From: Candidatus Caccenecus avistercoris
Lineage (GTDB): Bacteria; Bacillota_I; Bacilli_A; RF39; UBA660
Direction: 5' to 3'
DNA: 38,321 nt
Assembly (NCBI GenBank): GCA_018716965.1
Contig: DVJF01000026.1
Coordinates: 1 to 38,321 of the forward strand
The notes under the pieces were generated by a model. It was not told the origin of the DNA. It ran no database searches and worked only from the letters and a program-made list of their open reading frames with translations. Shown in pieces: positions 4,361-32,038 of the stretch. Within the stretch, counting starts at the first letter, position 1; each line of letters starts with the position of its first letter. The translations under genes were made by a program, and so were the position numbers.

Positions 4361-5626
4361 ATGGATTTAAATAAATTAATTGAAGAAAATATTAGCAAAA
4401 ATAGAATTACTGGTTTAACCAAGCCTAAAATAATAAAAGAAATGTTATCAATTCCAGAAAATATTAATTTAAAAAAATTAGACCAAATTATTAATTCCTG
4501 TTATAGTACTTTTTATATAAAAAAGAATTGGTCAAAGCATCAAGAAACTGAAGAAGAAAAATATATAAGATATTTAAATATACATCAAGAATTATCAGAA
4601 AGAATACAGCAACTTCCTGAAAATGCTGATAAAACTAAGTATAGAAAAATTTTAGTAATTAATGAACCTTGGCTAAAAGTAAGTCAAAAAAAACTAAATA
4701 AATTATTAACTAGTATTTTATTAACCAAAAAAGAAAAAGCAAAAAAGAGAGAAAGTATTGTTCCGTATTTACATTCTTCTGTTAAACAAAGATCTTATAC
4801 AACAAATGCACAAGCGCATATAGGAGATAAATATGTTTTTGCAATAGATTTAAAAGATTTTTATCCATCAGTAACAAAAGTAAAAATTTTCAATTTTTTT
4901 AAAAAGCATTTTAAACTTCCTAGTGATATTGCTATGATTTATGCAGTTCTTTCAACCTATAAATCAGATAATGGAGAATACTGTTTGGGTCAAGGTTTAT
5001 CACAAAGTTCAACATTAGCATTTTTAGTAAATTATCGATTGTTTAATTATTTATATCTTGAAGCCCAAAAATTAGGTATAGAAATGACTATTTATGTAGA
5101 TGATGTTATTTTTAGTTCTTCTAGTCCGATTCCACAAAAATTTATTAATAGACTTTTTGGAATAATTAAAGAAAATAAAATGTCTATAAAAAGAAGAAAA
5201 GTGTATTATTATGGAAAAAAGCAAACAAAAAAAATCACAGGAATTTATATAAAAAAAAATAAAACCTCAGTGGCTTATGAAAAACATAAAGAAATTAGAA
5301 TTCAATATAATTATCTAAAAGAAAAAATAAAAGAAATAAAAACTTTTAGTGATTATTTATGTATATATAATCTTTATTTAAAATTTTATGGAAATTATCA
5401 TCATATATTAAATGTGGAAAAGAAAATCAATAATAAAATTTTAAATTTTGTAGATAAATATGATGAATTTTTTCCTAAAGGAATTCATAAGAAACAAAAA
5501 CAGCCATACAGTGTTCAAAATATAAAAACTATCAATGATGTACAAAGACTAAATAAATGTTATCAAAAGTTAAAAAATAAAAATTTAAACGAAGTAATAT
5601 TAGATTATCCTAATGTTAATTTATAA
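4361..5626 (+). CDS. Retron-type reverse transcriptase
   Basis: 421 aa; 'TTNAQAH' (retron NAxxH motif), 'AIDLKDFYPSV', 'LGQGLSQSSTLAFL', 'IYVDDVIFSS' catalytic box, 'KKITGIYI' (VTG-like). Confidence 0.88.
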   Translation: MDLNKLIEENISKNRITGLTKPKIIKEMLSIPENINLKKLDQIINSCYSTFYIKKNWSKHQETEEEKYIRYLNIHQELSERIQQLPENADKTKYRKILVINEPWLKVSQKKLNKLLTSILLTKKEKAKKRESIVPYLHSSVKQRSYTTNAQAHIGDKYVFAIDLKDFYPSVTKVKIFNFFKKHFKLPSDIAMIYAVLSTYKSDNGEYCLGQGLSQSSTLAFLVNYRLFNYLYLEAQKLGIEMTIYVDDVIFSSSSPIPQKFINRLFGIIKENKMSIKRRKVYYYGKKQTKKITGIYIKKNKTSVAYEKHKEIRIQYNYLKEKIKEIKTFSDYLCIYNLYLKFYGNYHHILNVEKKINNKILNFVDKYDEFFPKGIHKKQKQPYSVQNIKTINDVQRLNKCYQKLKNKNLNEVILDYPNVNL

Positions 5627-6620: not shown

Positions 6621-6694
6621 TGGAGGAGCCTACCGGATTTGAACCGGTGCTAACGGAGTTGCAGTCCGGTGCCTTACCACTTGGCTAAAGCTCC
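6621..6694 (-). tRNA. tRNA-Cys (GCA), CCA encoded
   Basis: GGAGCTT...CTGCAAC loop...GGTTCAAATCC...AGGCTCC-T-CCA on minus strand; terminator-like hairpin downstream. Confidence 0.93.
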
Positions 6695-6814
6695 ATATCG
6701 CAATGAAATAATACTTCCCTTCATTGCATTTACTATTTTACACTAATGTTGCATCTTTGTCAATTAGTGTAAATGTTTTTTTATGTTTAATTTTATGTTT
6801 TAAGGAGGAATTTT

Positions 6815-7219
6815 ATGATTATATTACATAAAAGTTTAAAAAGAAGTGAAGAATTAGTAAGATCTATTCGTAGAAAATTTGAATACGATGGTAAAGCTAT
6901 AAGCGGTGTTATGGAATGTTTTAATAATAAAGATTATCAAGGATATATCTTAAAAATTATGCATTCTTTTAATAAAGGTAATGATCTCGTTATATGGTTT
7001 TATGAATCTTTAAAAGATAAAAATATTCAAGTAGCTTATAGCACTTTATCTAATGTTGATGAATTTAATAATTGGATAGATAAAGAGCAATTAAATGTCA
7101 AAGTATATCCTATTGTTAAAGAAATTAAAAGAGATATTGTTAGTGATGTTTTTAATAATATAATTAATTATTATGGGTTAGACGAACAAATAGAAGAAGA
7201 AAAAAGTCTAAAAATTTAG
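6815..7219 (+). CDS. Hypothetical accessory protein
   Basis: 134 aa with SD AAGGAGG and ATG. Confidence 0.6.
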   Translation: MIILHKSLKRSEELVRSIRRKFEYDGKAISGVMECFNNKDYQGYILKIMHSFNKGNDLVIWFYESLKDKNIQVAYSTLSNVDEFNNWIDKEQLNVKVYPIVKEIKRDIVSDVFNNIINYYGLDEQIEEEKSLKI

Positions 7220-7229
7220 GAGGCATTTT

Positions 7230-7526
7230 ATAGAACTAAAAAGATTAAGTGATATTTTTTATGAAATAGCAGATTTTTTAAAAAATTATGAGTTGCAAGA
7301 GGAAAATAAGAATTTAAAGCAAAATACTGAAGATGAAAAATTATATAAATTAAAAGAGATATTGGAGTTATACCCGATATTAACCACTTATTCTGTAAAT
7401 AAGGCGGTCAATGAGAAAAAATTAAAAGCAATTCAACTTGGCAAAACTAGATTTTATAAAAAGAAAGATATTGAAAAGTTTTTGGAATCTAATTATGATT
7501 GTAAAAAATACCTAGGAGGGTTTTAA
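7230..7526 (+). CDS. Excisionase-like HTH DNA-binding protein, apparent ATA start
   Basis: (I/M)ELKRLSDIFYEIADFLKNYE...LKEILELYPILTTYSVNKAVNEKKLKAIQLGKTRFYKKKDIEKFLES (HTH_17-like); AGGAGG then ATA at 7230; next to integrase. Confidence 0.6.
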   Translation: MELKRLSDIFYEIADFLKNYELQEENKNLKQNTEDEKLYKLKEILELYPILTTYSVNKAVNEKKLKAIQLGKTRFYKKKDIEKFLESNYDCKKYLGGF

Positions 7527-7528
7527 AT

Positions 7529-9135
7529 ATAGGCAGGATTGCTAAAGTAAGTGATTTAACTAAAAATGATTTAAAAAAATTCGAAATTGGTTTAACTGAA
7601 GCTAAAAAATTAAAAATTACCAAAGAGGATTTAAAAGGGATTACAGAAATAATTCCAAATAAAAAATATGGAATCAGATTAACTACTGGAAGTAGAAAAT
7701 ATTTTACTTTAAATGGTACTTTAATAGATAGCATTCGTGAGAAAAAAAGAGTTGAAAAAAATGTTCAGTTTGATCCAAAACAAGAACATTCAGAAAATTC
7801 AGAACTTATATTTAGTGATGGAATAAAATTGTATTTTAATGATTTATACGATCGTGAAAAAAGGAACGCTATTGATATAAATACAGTATATGATCATTAT
7901 AAAAAAACTAATCTTTATATTATTCCTTACTTTGTAGAAGAACGTGGGGATATAAAATTATCACAACTTACAACTAAGGATATTGAAGACTTTTACACAT
8001 ATATGAGAAAAAGACCAAATAGTAATAATTCAAAAGAATCATTAAGTGAAAAAACTATACACAATACTAGTACAACTCTAAATGCAATATTAAACTTTTT
8101 GGTTAGTGATAAAAAATTGAAATTAATCCAGCCAAAGAAGCTAGAAATAAACCAAATCCTAAAAAAAAGAAAAAAGAATTACAATATTTTAAAAAAAATG
8201 AAGCAATTTATGCTCTTAAATGTATAGATAACTTTGCCGATATTCGTTTAAAAACTTTTATGAATATTATATTTTCGTTAGGATGTAGAAGTGAGGAAGT
8301 AACTGGGTTAAGATGGTGTGATATAGATTTTGATGAGGCAGAAGTTAATTATTATGTTGCAATTACTTCTAATGTTCCAAAAAGTTTTTTAAAAAGTGAT
8401 AAAAGAGTTAGAGAAAAGGAACTTAAAACACCAAATAGTTATAGAACTAATTTTTTGTCGGATAAAGCATTACGACTTTTAAAAAATTATTACGAATTTC
8501 AAAAAGCCTGTGGTTTTGACATAAAAGATACTGATTATATATTTAAATCTTGGGATGGCGAATCGGTAGCTGATCCTCATAAGTTATCAGAATATTGGCG
8601 AAAATTTAAAAAACAATATAATATTAAAAATGTAGATTTACATAGAATAAGACATACTGTTGCAAATATACTAGAGTGAAAAGGAATACCTAAAAAAGAT
8701 ATTGCTAAGTTACTTGGTAATACTGAACGTGTACTCGAGGAATTTTATACTCATGTTGATTCCCAAGAATTAAAAAAAATGAGAAACGTTCTCGATGAAG
8801 AATTATTCGAAGACGTGGAAACAATAGATTTGGATATAAACTTGACTGTTAAAATTCTTAATGATTATCCAATGGCATCTTTTAGTGATTCAGAATTAAA
8901 AAAAATCGACTATTTATTAGATCAAAATATAGACAATACGAATTTTGAATCATATATTAAAATTACGAAACAAACAATTTTAAATAGTAATGCAAAACTA
9001 ATTTATTTTATAGATGATAATAAAGAAAGATTAAATATAAAAATTGAGTGTTATAAGTTATTTGTTCCTAGTAGTAATATAGGTATTAAAAAAGTCAAAG
9101 ATGTTGCTATTACCAAAAGTATTTTTGAATTTTAG
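7529..9135 (+). pseudogene. Tyrosine recombinase/integrase, frameshifted, with in-frame TGA and apparent ATA start
   Basis: (I/M)GRIAKVSDLTKND... to 'LGCRSEEVTGLRW', 'HRIRHT', 'EEFYTHV'; frame change at the A6 run 8111-8116; TGA at 8677-8679. Confidence 0.85.
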
Positions 9136-9360
9136 AGATTAAATGTTAATAAAATATTATGATAAAATACATCCGGTAAACAAACTATATATAGTTTACT
9201 TTTCTATGGATTTATTTGGGAATGTATTGACTGATTATTGTCCAAACAATACAAAAAAATACAAAAAAATATGATTTTTTTAATAAAAATATTGTTTTGT
9301 ATTATTGCGAAATACCTTGATTTTATGCGATTTCTATATAAAATTAAATAAAATGGTATT

Positions 9361-9406
9361 GACTGCAACTCCCCGAGCACCAGTTCAAATCTGGTAGGCC
9401 CCTCCA
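9361..9406 (+). other. Orphan tRNA-Cys 3' half (probable att scar)
   Basis: GACTGCAACTCC...CACCAGTTCAAATCTGGTAGGCCCCTCCA; no 5' half upstream; terminator AAGAGTATTTACTCTTTTTT follows. Confidence 0.8.
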
Positions 9407-9452
9407 ATTGTATTTGAAAGAGTATTTACTCTTTTTTCTTTTGGCCTAAAAG

Positions 9453-9579
9453 AAAAAACATATACTCTCATGAATATATGTATTATTAAATGTTCCCACC
9501 CACCCAAGCATGCTAGTAAAAGTCAAATGAATATAAGCATTTAAACTGTTTGGTATGGAAGAGCATGCTTATCCACTAC
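9453..9579 (-). ncRNA. Structured RNA divergent from tandem-XRE gene, copy 1
   Basis: Minus-strand extended -10 TGGTATAAT (ATTATA at 9586-9591), predicted +1 G9579, stem AAGCATGC/GCATGCTT, GGGTGGGTGGGAA, terminator 9453-9481. Confidence 0.7.
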
Positions 9580-9668
9580 AACTATATTATACCATATAAA
9601 TCGTATTACTGCATAAAAAACTAATATTTATTTTTGAAATGAGAAAATTAATATTGGTGGTAAGTATG

Positions 9669-10115
9669 TATTATGAAAAACTTTTTGACATCCGTATAGA
9701 TGCCGATTTAACTCAAGAGGGGATTGCTAAAATTTTAGGAGTCACTCAAGAGAACTACTCTAGGTGGGAAACAGGTAAAGAATTTATCCCTTTAAGTAAA
9801 TTAAATGTTTTATGTAATTATTTTCATGTTAGTATGGATTATGCTTTAGGACTAGATGAAAACAAAACTTATAAGGAAGTATCACTAGACAAAAATATTA
9901 TTGGCACTCGTCTAAGAGAATTTCGCCACAATATAGGAATTACTCAAAAGGAATTAGCCAAAATATTAAATACCACCCAATCGACTATTTCTGCCTATGA
10001 AAGAGGACACACTTTAATATTAGCTAGTTTTGCTTATGAGCTTGCCAAAAAATATAATTTATCTTTAGACTGGTTAACAAACCGCCACAATACAATGTTT
10101 ATTTCTCAAAAATAA
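9669..10115 (+). CDS. Tandem XRE/HTH_3 transcriptional regulator, copy 1
   Basis: Two HTH_3 repeats: 'LTQEGIAKILGVTQENYSRWETGKEFIP' and 'ITQKELAKILNTTQSTISAYERGHT'; likely ATG at 9669. Confidence 0.8.
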   Translation, partial: YYEKLFDIRIDADLTQEGIAKILGVTQENYSRWETGKEFIPLSKLNVLCNYFHVSMDYALGLDENKTYKEVSLDKNIIGTRLREFRHNIGITQKELAKILNTTQSTISAYERGHTLILASFAYELAKKYNLSLDWLTNRHNTMFISQK

Positions 10116-10210
10116 TTGCTAGATTTTATCTAGTTTTTTTGTTACAAAAAACTTCTAAAAGTTGACACATAGTTTACTTTATGATACATTTATTCATGAA
10201 ATTTACAAAT

Positions 10211-10336
10211 AAAAAAGAAGCCAACTACTTAGTTAATGCTTCTTAAAAATTCCCACCCACCCAAGTGTGCCGGTAAAAGTTTAGGCATATTGCACTTAAA
10301 ACAGTTTGGTATGGAAAGAGCACACTTATCCACTAC
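10211..10336 (-). ncRNA. Structured RNA divergent from tandem-XRE gene, copy 2
   Basis: Minus-strand TGTTATAAT (ATTATA at 10343-10348), predicted +1 G10336, stem AAGTGTGC/GCACACTT, GGGTGGGTGGGAA, terminator AAGAAGC...GCTTCTTTTTT. Confidence 0.7.
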
Positions 10337-10422
10337 ATAATTATTATAACACAAATATCGCATTATGGGGAAAAAAGATAATAATTTTAAAATGCATGGG
10401 AAAATTAAGCATAGGTGGTACT

Positions 10423-10878
10423 ATGCTATATTATGAGTGTTTGCTAGATTTAAGAAAAGATAATAATTATACAATCATGGAAATGTCAAAATTATTAAAT
10501 ACTAGTAAATCAAATTATCAAAGGTGGGAAACAGGAGAGAGGTTTATTCCTACAAGTAGTTTAAATGAAATATCTAGTTTATTTAAAGTAAGTGTTGATT
10601 ATTTATTAGGAATTACCAGAATTAATAATTCGGATATTTCTTATTTTGACAAGTTAAATAAAAAACTAATTGGCCATAATATTAAAAAATTTCGTCAAGA
10701 AAACAATTTATCTCAAAAAGAGTTAGCAAAATTTCTAAACACTTCCCAATCTACTATCTCAGCCTATGAAAATGGTCATACTCTAATTTTATCAATATTT
10801 ATTTATCAAATATGTAGCAAGTATAAAATATCAGCGGATTGGTTACTTGGAAAATCTACACATGAAAAGCTTAAATAG
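10423..10878 (+). CDS. Tandem XRE/HTH_3 transcriptional regulator, copy 2
   Basis: MLYYECLLDLRKDNNYTIMEMSKLLNTSKSNYQRWETG... and LSQKELAKFLNTSQSTISAYENGHT; paralogue of copy 1. Confidence 0.8.
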   Translation: MLYYECLLDLRKDNNYTIMEMSKLLNTSKSNYQRWETGERFIPTSSLNEISSLFKVSVDYLLGITRINNSDISYFDKLNKKLIGHNIKKFRQENNLSQKELAKFLNTSQSTISAYENGHTLILSIFIYQICSKYKISADWLLGKSTHEKLK

Positions 10879-27745: not shown

Positions 27746-28537
27746 CTATAATAATGAATATACTAGTAAAAATCCTAACATAATAGCTATAGTACTATCT
27801 AGGCGGTCTAATATGCCACCATGGCCAGGAATTAAATTGCTAAAATCTTTAATTTCATTTTCTCTTTTAATTTTACTAAATATTAAATCCCCTATTTGAC
27901 CTAATATAGATAAGAAAAGAGTTACTAATACTACCCAAATGGTAATATCACTTACAAAGAAGTGGTAGAAGAAACACGCTACTACGGTTGCAATAATAGA
28001 ACCTAATACGCTTCCTTCGACTGTTTTTTTTGGACTAACCGCTGGTATTAATTTATGACGACCAAAGGCCATACCCATAAGCATAGCAAAGGTATCCGTA
28101 AAAATAAAAATTAGAATCAAATAAATAAATAAGTACAAATCTGTCATTCTCGCTAAAATCATCGCATTAAAGGAAACACCTAAGAGAAGAACACATCCAA
28201 TTAATACTAAAGCATCAGTAGCCCGATATTTGTTTTCTGGATAAAATACCGATAAACCTAATAAGCTAAGTAAGAGTATGGCAATCCCCCGATAAGTAAC
28301 TCCAAACATGATAGAATAACCATCAAATTCAGATAAAACAATCAGTAATAAAGCTACCATACTTACTAATTTTACAAATATGGGTATTTCTTGATGACTT
28401 TTTTTTAAGTCTAAAAGTTCTTTTAAAGCTAGAAGACTTACCACACCTACTCCTAACCGAAATAAATCACCACCATACCAAACAAGAGGTATGACAATAA
28501 TTAACATCACAATAGCACTAATAATTCTTTTTTTCAT
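27746..28537 (-). CDS. cdsA: Phosphatidate cytidylyltransferase
   Basis: C-terminal 'KDFSNLIPGHGGILDRLDS' signature. Confidence 0.93.
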   Translation of the reverse strand: MKKRIISAIVMLIIVIPLVWYGGDLFRLGVGVVSLLALKELLDLKKSHQEIPIFVKLVSMVALLLIVLSEFDGYSIMFGVTYRGIAILLLSLLGLSVFYPENKYRATDALVLIGCVLLLGVSFNAMILARMTDLYLFIYLILIFIFTDTFAMLMGMAFGRHKLIPAVSPKKTVEGSVLGSIIATVVACFFYHFFVSDITIWVVLVTLFLSILGQIGDLIFSKIKRENEIKDFSNLIPGHGGILDRLDSTIAIMLGFLLVYSLL

Positions 28538-31325: not shown

Positions 31326-31454
31326 ATTTACAAATAAAATGTACATTAAATAACGAATATGAATTGCTCGAATCATTCTTTCAAATGCTTGAGCAAAGGG
31401 AGCAAACATACTGCCACCACTCACTTTTAATAAGCTCTCATTATTTAGTTTCAT
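31323..31454 (-). CDS. Small peptide with double-glycine-like leader
   Basis: 43 aa MKLNNESLLKVSGGSMFAPFAQAFERMIRAIHIRYLMYILFVN; SD AAAGGA; TATAAT upstream; not in ORF track. Confidence 0.5.
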   Translation of the reverse strand: MKLNNESLLKVSGGSMFAPFAQAFERMIRAIHIRYLMYILFVN

Positions 31455-31489
31455 ATTATCCTTTCTAACGAGTGAACAGTATGATTATA

Positions 31490-32038
31490 TCACACTTTTA
31501 AGTAATTCTCTATACTCAAATAAGGAATTTTAATACTGATAGCTCCACTACTCCAAGGACCTACTTGATATGGTGGAAAAATAATTTGTAAGTTATCTTC
31601 TAGAAATATTAAAAGGCTAAAATTTTCTATAGTTGGAGTTAGGCCAGTCTTTACCATCTTAACATCATCATATAATAAATTTTTCTTTTCTTTTAGTAAA
31701 TATTCTGATAGAGTACTTAGTTCTTTTAAAAATTCATCTTTATTCGTTATTAAATCTTCTAAAAATAATTCCTTATTATTTACTAAGTCATAATAAAATA
31801 CTTTATCATAACGAATACTATGGGCTCCTCCACTATCGACATATAAAATGTAATGAAGAGAAGCTATATTTTTATAAAATCTAATATCATAAGATAAATC
31901 ATAAATGCTTTTTTTGGCTATCTCAGTTTCTATCTTACTTAAAAATTCGTTTTTCTTGTCTATGATAAAGGTATCTAGCATGATACATTCTTCCATATGA
32001 ATAGAGTCATAAAACTCCATATTTATGTAATTATTCAA
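31490..32038 (-). CDS. DUF3298-like/hypothetical protein
   Basis: 182 aa with 'YVDSGGAHSIRYDKVFYYDL' and C-terminal 'FPPYQVGPWSSGAISIKIPY' pattern. Confidence 0.6.
   Translation of the reverse strand: MNNYINMEFYDSIHMEECIMLDTFIIDKKNEFLSKIETEIAKKSIYDLSYDIRFYKNIASLHYILYVDSGGAHSIRYDKVFYYDLVNNKELFLEDLITNKDEFLKELSTLSEYLLKEKKNLLYDDVKMVKTGLTPTIENFSLLIFLEDNLQIIFPPYQVGPWSSGAISIKIPYLSIENYLKV

Follow-up and report, generated by a model that had tools for sequence, protein, structure and literature searches.

In Bacillus subtilis the stand-alone RNA RosA acts as a sponge of RoxS and FsrA (PMC8216469), and in enterohaemorrhagic E. coli the prophage-encoded AgvB is an anti-sRNA of GcvB (PMC7873438). Contacts between small RNAs have also been found by RNA ligation in the sporulation network of Clostridioides difficile (PMC10267692). 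On present evidence the RNA family described here, Z, looks like these three cases. RosA is likewise a Gram-positive stand-alone RNA with an intrinsic terminator that pairs with small-RNA seeds; however, it directs G-rich regions against C-rich seeds, as has been shown experimentally (PMC8216469), whereas Z uses UCCAUACCAAAC, is structured by a stem (P1), is duplicated and lies divergent from XRE genes. An Rfam search revealed no sequence relation between the two. The likeness to AgvB is that of an accessory-locus RNA that mimics small-RNA targets and pairs with the seed, but AgvB comes from a prophage and belongs to an Hfq-dependent network of enterobacteria (PMC7873438), whereas the Z locus is a variable chromosomal interval. 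The C. difficile case concerns a Gram-positive anaerobe in which small RNAs may sponge each other (PMC10267692), and no related sequences are claimed.

The DNA analysed, hereafter the window, comprises positions 1-38,321 (38,321 nucleotides, forward strand) of contig DVJF01000026.1 from Candidatus Caccenecus avistercoris (GCA_018716965.1). Its genome, G000, measures 1.25 Mb in 77 contigs and is 91.5% complete. Two copies of Z, c1 and c2, lie in the window; further copies are c3 (G000:C5:33137-33220) and c4 (G034:C1:46968-47052), and X and Y are names given here to two further small RNAs outside the window. We put at about even the chance that c1 and c2 are base-pairing anti-sRNAs (sponges) of X, probably controlled by the divergent XRE proteins; we infer the direction of sponging (who silences whom), the XRE control and the expression of Z. 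With this analysis a structured RNA that was anonymous becomes a base-pairing circuit open to testing, in a small-genome lineage of Bacilli that is uncultured. The analysis also adds X, Y and Z, three RNA families absent from Rfam whose contact sites are predicted exactly, and it suggests that Gram-positive variable loci can carry anti-sRNAs, as enterobacterial prophages do.

Two copies of Z in the window and their relatives

The features of the two copies, with their basis in brackets, are as follows.

9586-9594, minus strand: extended -10 of c1, TGGTATAAT (sequence)
9453-9579, minus strand: RNA gene c1 (family Z), about 127 nt (sequence, alignment, covariance model)
9563-9570, minus strand: 5′ arm of P1 in c1, AAGCAUGC (covaries with 9506-9513)
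9548-9559, minus strand: anti-seed of c1, UCCAUACCAAAC, complementary to the X linker (12-nt perfect complement in X)
9506-9513, minus strand: 3′ arm of P1 in c1, GCAUGCUU (covariation)
9493-9507, minus strand: G-rich tail of c1, UUGGGUGGGUGGGAA, possible self-mask of the anti-seed (conserved; predicted pairing)
9453-9481, minus strand: intrinsic terminator of c1, hairpin and U-run (sequence, fold)
10343-10351, minus strand: extended -10 of c2, TGTTATAAT (sequence)
10211-10336, minus strand: RNA gene c2 (family Z), about 126 nt (sequence, alignment, covariance model)
10320-10327, minus strand: 5′ arm of P1 in c2, AAGUGUGC (covaries with 10263-10270)
10303-10315, minus strand: anti-seed of c2, UCCAUACCAAACU (13-nt perfect complement in X)
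10263-10270, minus strand: 3′ arm of P1 in c2, GCACACUU (covariation)
10250-10264, minus strand: G-rich tail of c2 (conserved; predicted pairing)
10211-10244, minus strand: intrinsic terminator of c2 (sequence, fold)

The first-pass annotation had described two minus-strand loci of the same architecture, giving RNAs of about 127 and 126 nt, each divergent from a paralogous double-HTH_3 protein. Both the architecture with its coordinates and the neighbouring proteins (by ORF and Pfam) were confirmed. Each copy has an extended -10 lacking a -35, with the predicted +1 G 7 nt downstream, and the two have in common the blocks GTAGTGGATAAG, CCATACCAAAC, CTTTTAC and TTGGGTGGGTGGGAA, followed by an intrinsic terminator. 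Shuffled windows gave an expectation of zero chance matches to the 5′ block pattern. In the c2 orthologue of the sister species G029 the terminator sequence differs and the hairpin is kept. Judged by sequence, c1 and c2 stand alone as RNA genes, each carrying a promoter and a terminator of its own; the same does not apply to c3 and c4. Read on the plus strand (9568-9579 and 10325-10336), both RNA starts give CTTATCCACTAC, a resemblance to the DnaA-box core TTATCCAC that is probably coincidence.

The two compensated stem substitutions reported between c1 and c2 are real, and the proposal that RNA structure is under selection is supported by covariation of P1 in an alignment of six sequences. 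In this alignment 93.8% of cells are paired, three pairs are changed on both sides, and the covariation score is 0.408, compared with 0.215 +/- 0.057 for shuffled alignments and 0-0.142 for slid partners; the six sequences are few and related, and the support is good, not overwhelming. Fold energy is not significant for c1 or c2 (RNAfold z -0.99 and -0.25). The long stem that the annotation drew thus stands by covariation (n=6) and is missing from the minimum-free-energy folds of both copies; therefore, P1 rests on covariation and not on energy. The anti-seed of c1 is predicted to pair with the RNA's own G-rich tail at -9.3 kcal/mol, and values of -8.5 to -10.1 kcal/mol are predicted across all four copies (c1-c4). 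The tail is a possible self-mask of the anti-seed, on which covariation is uninformative because anti-seed and tail hardly vary.

Six sequences combine a covarying P1, an invariant core UCCAUACCAA and a G-rich tail, namely c1 and c2 in both G000 and G029 and the two divergent copies c3 and c4. The core is identical in 6/6, and the remainder diverges. Close copies of c1 and c2 were found by blastn only in G029, where they adjoin an apparently intact tRNA-Cys, and a covariance model recovered c3 (E 3e-8) and c4 (E 3e-5), E-values of such custom-built models being rough. A second model, built from the six sequences, gave no additional Z in 36 genomes of the genus, and neither model gave an additional member among 386 genomes of the family (150 genera). 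Those weak model matches that we inspected resemble coding DNA, and several of them correspond to an antisense stretch resembling ftsY. When 85,462 GTDB species were scanned for the exact pattern, matches came from G029, G034 and L126 (a close relative), together with a single one in the alphaproteobacterium Haematobacter, which we ascribe to chance. No phage or plasmid homologues of Z were found, and pattern scans of viral contigs gave nothing apart from one chance match. As far as searched, Z is confined to one genus. No Rfam 15 family matches Z at the gathering threshold, and the best hit of a permissive search (E 0.62) falls far below that family's gathering score; the annotation had left room for a known Rfam family. 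At the X and Y loci Rfam matched only rRNAs; X, Y and Z are three RNA families absent from Rfam.

Unlike the window copies, c3 (on G000:C5) and c4 (on G034:C1) begin a few nucleotides past the stop codon of a gene for a protein of about 235 aa.

L197 4427-5134, L196 2761-3462, L122 and L124: members of the ~235-aa protein family, two of which carry Z after the stop codon

This protein has no credible family match in Pfam, PHROGs or PADLOC, and its gene is usually divergent from that of a small single-HTH regulator. As an obligate partner of Z it was rejected, since homologues in G028 and G002 occur without the RNA. The position of c3 and c4 directly after this gene bears on another explanation, in which the conserved loops of a structured Z would bind a protein or small molecule (orphan riboswitch-like or protein-sequestering), the match to X being a by-product. 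Conserved loops flanking P1 and the G-rich tail, beyond what pairing with X needs, speak for it as well. We nevertheless consider it unlikely: RNA-free homologues of the protein exist, c1 and c2 have no such neighbour gene, and the loop match to X and Y described below is too specific for easy coincidence.

Complementarity between Z, X and Y

We scanned 1.247 Mb of G000, almost all of it, for complements of the invariant Z blocks. Besides the opposite strands of c1 and c2, only two exact matches to GTTTGGTATGG exist, one in a coding stretch within the ORF at 27746-28537 (minus) and one at C11:16222, which falls within a compact RNA gene, X.

G000:C11:16182-16265, plus strand (L298 1518-1601): small RNA X, predicted at about 80 nt, in 10 genomes

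X consists of a TTGATT/TATAAT promoter, a 5′ hairpin, a linker containing UAGUUUGGUAUGGA, and a terminator hairpin with U-run. It is present in 10/36 genomes of the genus, with UAGUUUGGUAUGGA invariant throughout, and its 5′ hairpin and terminator show compensatory changes (98.7% of cells paired, 3 pairs changed on both sides). The linker is mostly unpaired in predicted folds, except in G005 and G024. Among the 36 genomes searched X was not found in G029, G019 or G015. In five genomes (G000, G005, G008, G009 and G024) it adjoins 5S rRNA, and absence from an assembly is weak evidence because of this rRNA adjacency and because several copies lie near contig ends.

The Z core UCCAUACCAA(AC) is complementary to the X linker over 12-13 nt without mismatch (c1 and c2, respectively), or 14-15 nt including G-U pairs. 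In 175 kb of intergenic DNA the 13-nt complement of c2 is present a single time, and permuted 13-mers occur there in 0.7% of trials. Less conserved parts of c1 and c2 also have 12-13-nt complements in intergenic DNA, so complement length alone is not the argument; a chance match is unlikely because the rare 13-mer coincides, in addition, with the linker that X, a conserved small RNA, keeps invariant. Local duplexes with X reach -27.4 kcal/mol for c1 and -28.0 kcal/mol for c2. The net co-fold gain with X is -12.2, -14.6 and -7.3 kcal/mol for c1, c2 and c3, and -14.7 kcal/mol for c4 with the X of G034. The gains of c2 and c4 beat 40/40 shuffled partners and 40/40 seed shuffles of X, and those of c1 and c3 are not above every shuffled control, which counts against the sponge reading. 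Taken together, the predicted X:Z pairing is well supported by sequence, and Z is probably an antagonist of X because its invariant core complements the X pairing site exactly. The best partner found for Z is X, not XRE.

Sites matching TCCATACCAA are in excess over a reversed control in X-bearing genomes. They were rejected as targets: the other sites in G000 are coding and nearly all antisense, so the excess probably reflects codon usage. Following other TCCATACCAA sites led to a third small RNA, Y.

L337 1455-1541, L332 1455-1541, L372, L113, L182 and L353: small RNA Y, predicted at about 75 nt, in six species

Y is laid out as hairpin, UUCCAUACCRA and terminator. In six genomes (G029, G024, G007, G005, G019 and G015) the gene downstream of it encodes a ZIP transporter (PF02535, E 1.9e-19). 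It has the same anti-seed as Z, and in G024 its match to X is 14 nt and perfect. The X of G007 has GGAAGA in place of the GGAGG of most copies, and this faces CUUUCC in its Y, as a joint change would give. In G029 we found c1, c2 and Y and did not find X, which speaks, though weakly, against the sponge reading. In G000 the place corresponding to Y gives way to unrelated sequence close to a contig end, and Y is therefore missing or displaced there. Since Y uses the same anti-seed, Z may mimic Y as an accessory, duplicated RNA.

The distribution of Y also bears on the direction of the interaction. Z and Y could be effectors that use the seed UUCCAUACCAAAC against mRNAs, with X as their common sponge: Y occurs in genomes across the genus, also in G019 and G015, where X was not found, Y and Z have their seed in common, and X is known from ten genomes only. 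We regard this reversal as possible but doubtful. The mRNA start regions of G000 pair with the Y/Z seed no better than with shuffled seeds (none was an outlier for the seeds of X, Y or Z), and XRE mRNAs do not pair above the control level. That no mRNA target of X emerged also counts against the sponge reading. Z as an anti-sRNA of X is favoured because no mRNA start region in G000 stands out whereas X and Z match, and moreover because Z is accessory, duplicated and XRE-linked.

XRE proteins and the Z promoter

The protein genes divergent from c1 and c2, and the segments at the -35 places of the two RNA promoters, are listed below.

9639-10115, plus strand: XRE1, tandem HTH_3 protein divergent from c1 (ORF, Pfam)
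10396-10878, plus strand: XRE2, tandem HTH_3 protein divergent from c2 (ORF, Pfam; start codon by comparison)
9600-9607, minus strand: operator-like AATACGAT at the -35 place of c1 (58 divergent promoters compared; putative binding)
10357-10364, minus strand: operator-like AATGCGAT at the -35 place of c2 (58 divergent promoters compared; putative binding)

Tandem-HTH XRE proteins form a large paralogous family, with 34 matches in G000 and up to 53 in another species. A divergent TTGAC/TATAAT promoter is found at 19/29 inspected XRE loci of G000, and 17 of these 19 promoters precede a gene for a protein with an N-terminal membrane segment, which we read as a surface protein. A comparison of 58 divergent promoters showed that a AATACGAT-type segment is common to XRE/surface-gene intergenic regions, and a variable segment resembling AAATACGACATTTTTC lies upstream of the -35 at XRE loci. 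At c1 and c2 the AATRCGAT-like segment is kept and sits where the -35 would be, followed by the extended -10. XRE repression of the Z promoter is suggested by this segment taking the -35 position.

The annotation had described RNA and XRE gene as a duplicated module. The RNA is divergent from a tandem XRE gene for c1 and c2 in G000 and G029 and for a c2 copy in L126, but c3 and c4 lie 3′ of the ~235-aa protein gene, so XRE adjacency does not define Z, and one conserved module is not supported in that form. It is very unlikely that Z is an RNA regulator of the neighbouring XRE, as the annotation had considered, or a ligand for it: the divergent arrangement of c1, c2 and their G029 orthologues speaks for this, but c3 and c4 lack it, some 30 XRE paralogues in G000, mostly adjoining surface-protein genes, have no Z RNA, and pairing of Z with XRE translation start regions was not above controls.

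For Z as a sponge of X, we propose the following mechanism. The divergent XRE would act on the AATRCGAT segment, which stands in for the -35 element, and so repress the Z promoter. On release from XRE, Z would build up, its own G-rich tail loosely covering the anti-seed; X would then displace the tail and a 12-15 bp X:Z duplex would form. X would be titrated or degraded, and its regulated partners thereby freed. Only tentatively do we extend this to a three-RNA antisense circuit, in which X has the anti-sRNA Y and an XRE-controlled, duplicated mimic of Y, namely Z, whose pseudoknot mask X would open. In such a circuit the regulators of a variable chromosomal site would set free RNAs that rewire X, itself conserved.

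Several further observations concern the XRE loci. The members of the expanded family (L017 and L129-L157 in G000, L018-L066 in other species of the genus) are mostly divergent from genes for surface-type proteins with a membrane anchor. Their TTGAC..TATAAT promoter is near-constant, the operator-like segment immediately preceding it is variable, and the loci look like many parallel regulator-operator pairs. Most tandem-XRE genes are preceded by a conserved leader, ATGAGAMAAT-6/7nt-GGTGA, which in many cases can be read as a very short frame, for example MRKLFW-stop, with its stop codon overlapping the ribosome-binding site; the copy in the window (9639-9668) is in frame with XRE1. Another candidate terminated RNA, at G000:C5 ~31390-31640 on the plus strand (L134), is divergent from the tandem XRE at C5:30951-31382. 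It contains TGTGTTATAAT, a GGAAATA/TATTTCC-type hairpin and UUUCCAUAC, and does not match the Z model.

The variable chromosomal interval

The interval that holds both window copies of Z is variable: a tRNA-Cys close to spoVAC recurs in several species of the genus, and the cargo differs among them. The G000 version has tRNA-Cys at 6621-6694 and a repeated tRNA 3′ end at ~9360-9407, with an integrase-bearing stretch in between. This interval from tRNA-Cys to spoVAC, with its integrase element at the tRNA, speaks for another reading, in which the repeats would be DNA-level sites of a mobile element rather than genes for RNAs. That explanation is improbable in the extreme, given the aligned promoters and terminators, the G029 terminator that changed in sequence while keeping its hairpin, and the occurrence of only four contexts in the genus. 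By analogy, a variable interval carrying Z is like the loci of known accessory anti-sRNAs. The adjacency to spoVAC is no evidence for a role of the window RNAs in sporulation.

The integrase reading frame in the stretch at ~6621-9407 is broken in more than one place, and G029 has the same tRNA-Cys without the integrase-bearing stretch. Elsewhere in the window, 4361-5626 holds a reverse-transcriptase-like ORF of 421 aa with a YVDD motif, adjoining mobile-element-like genes.
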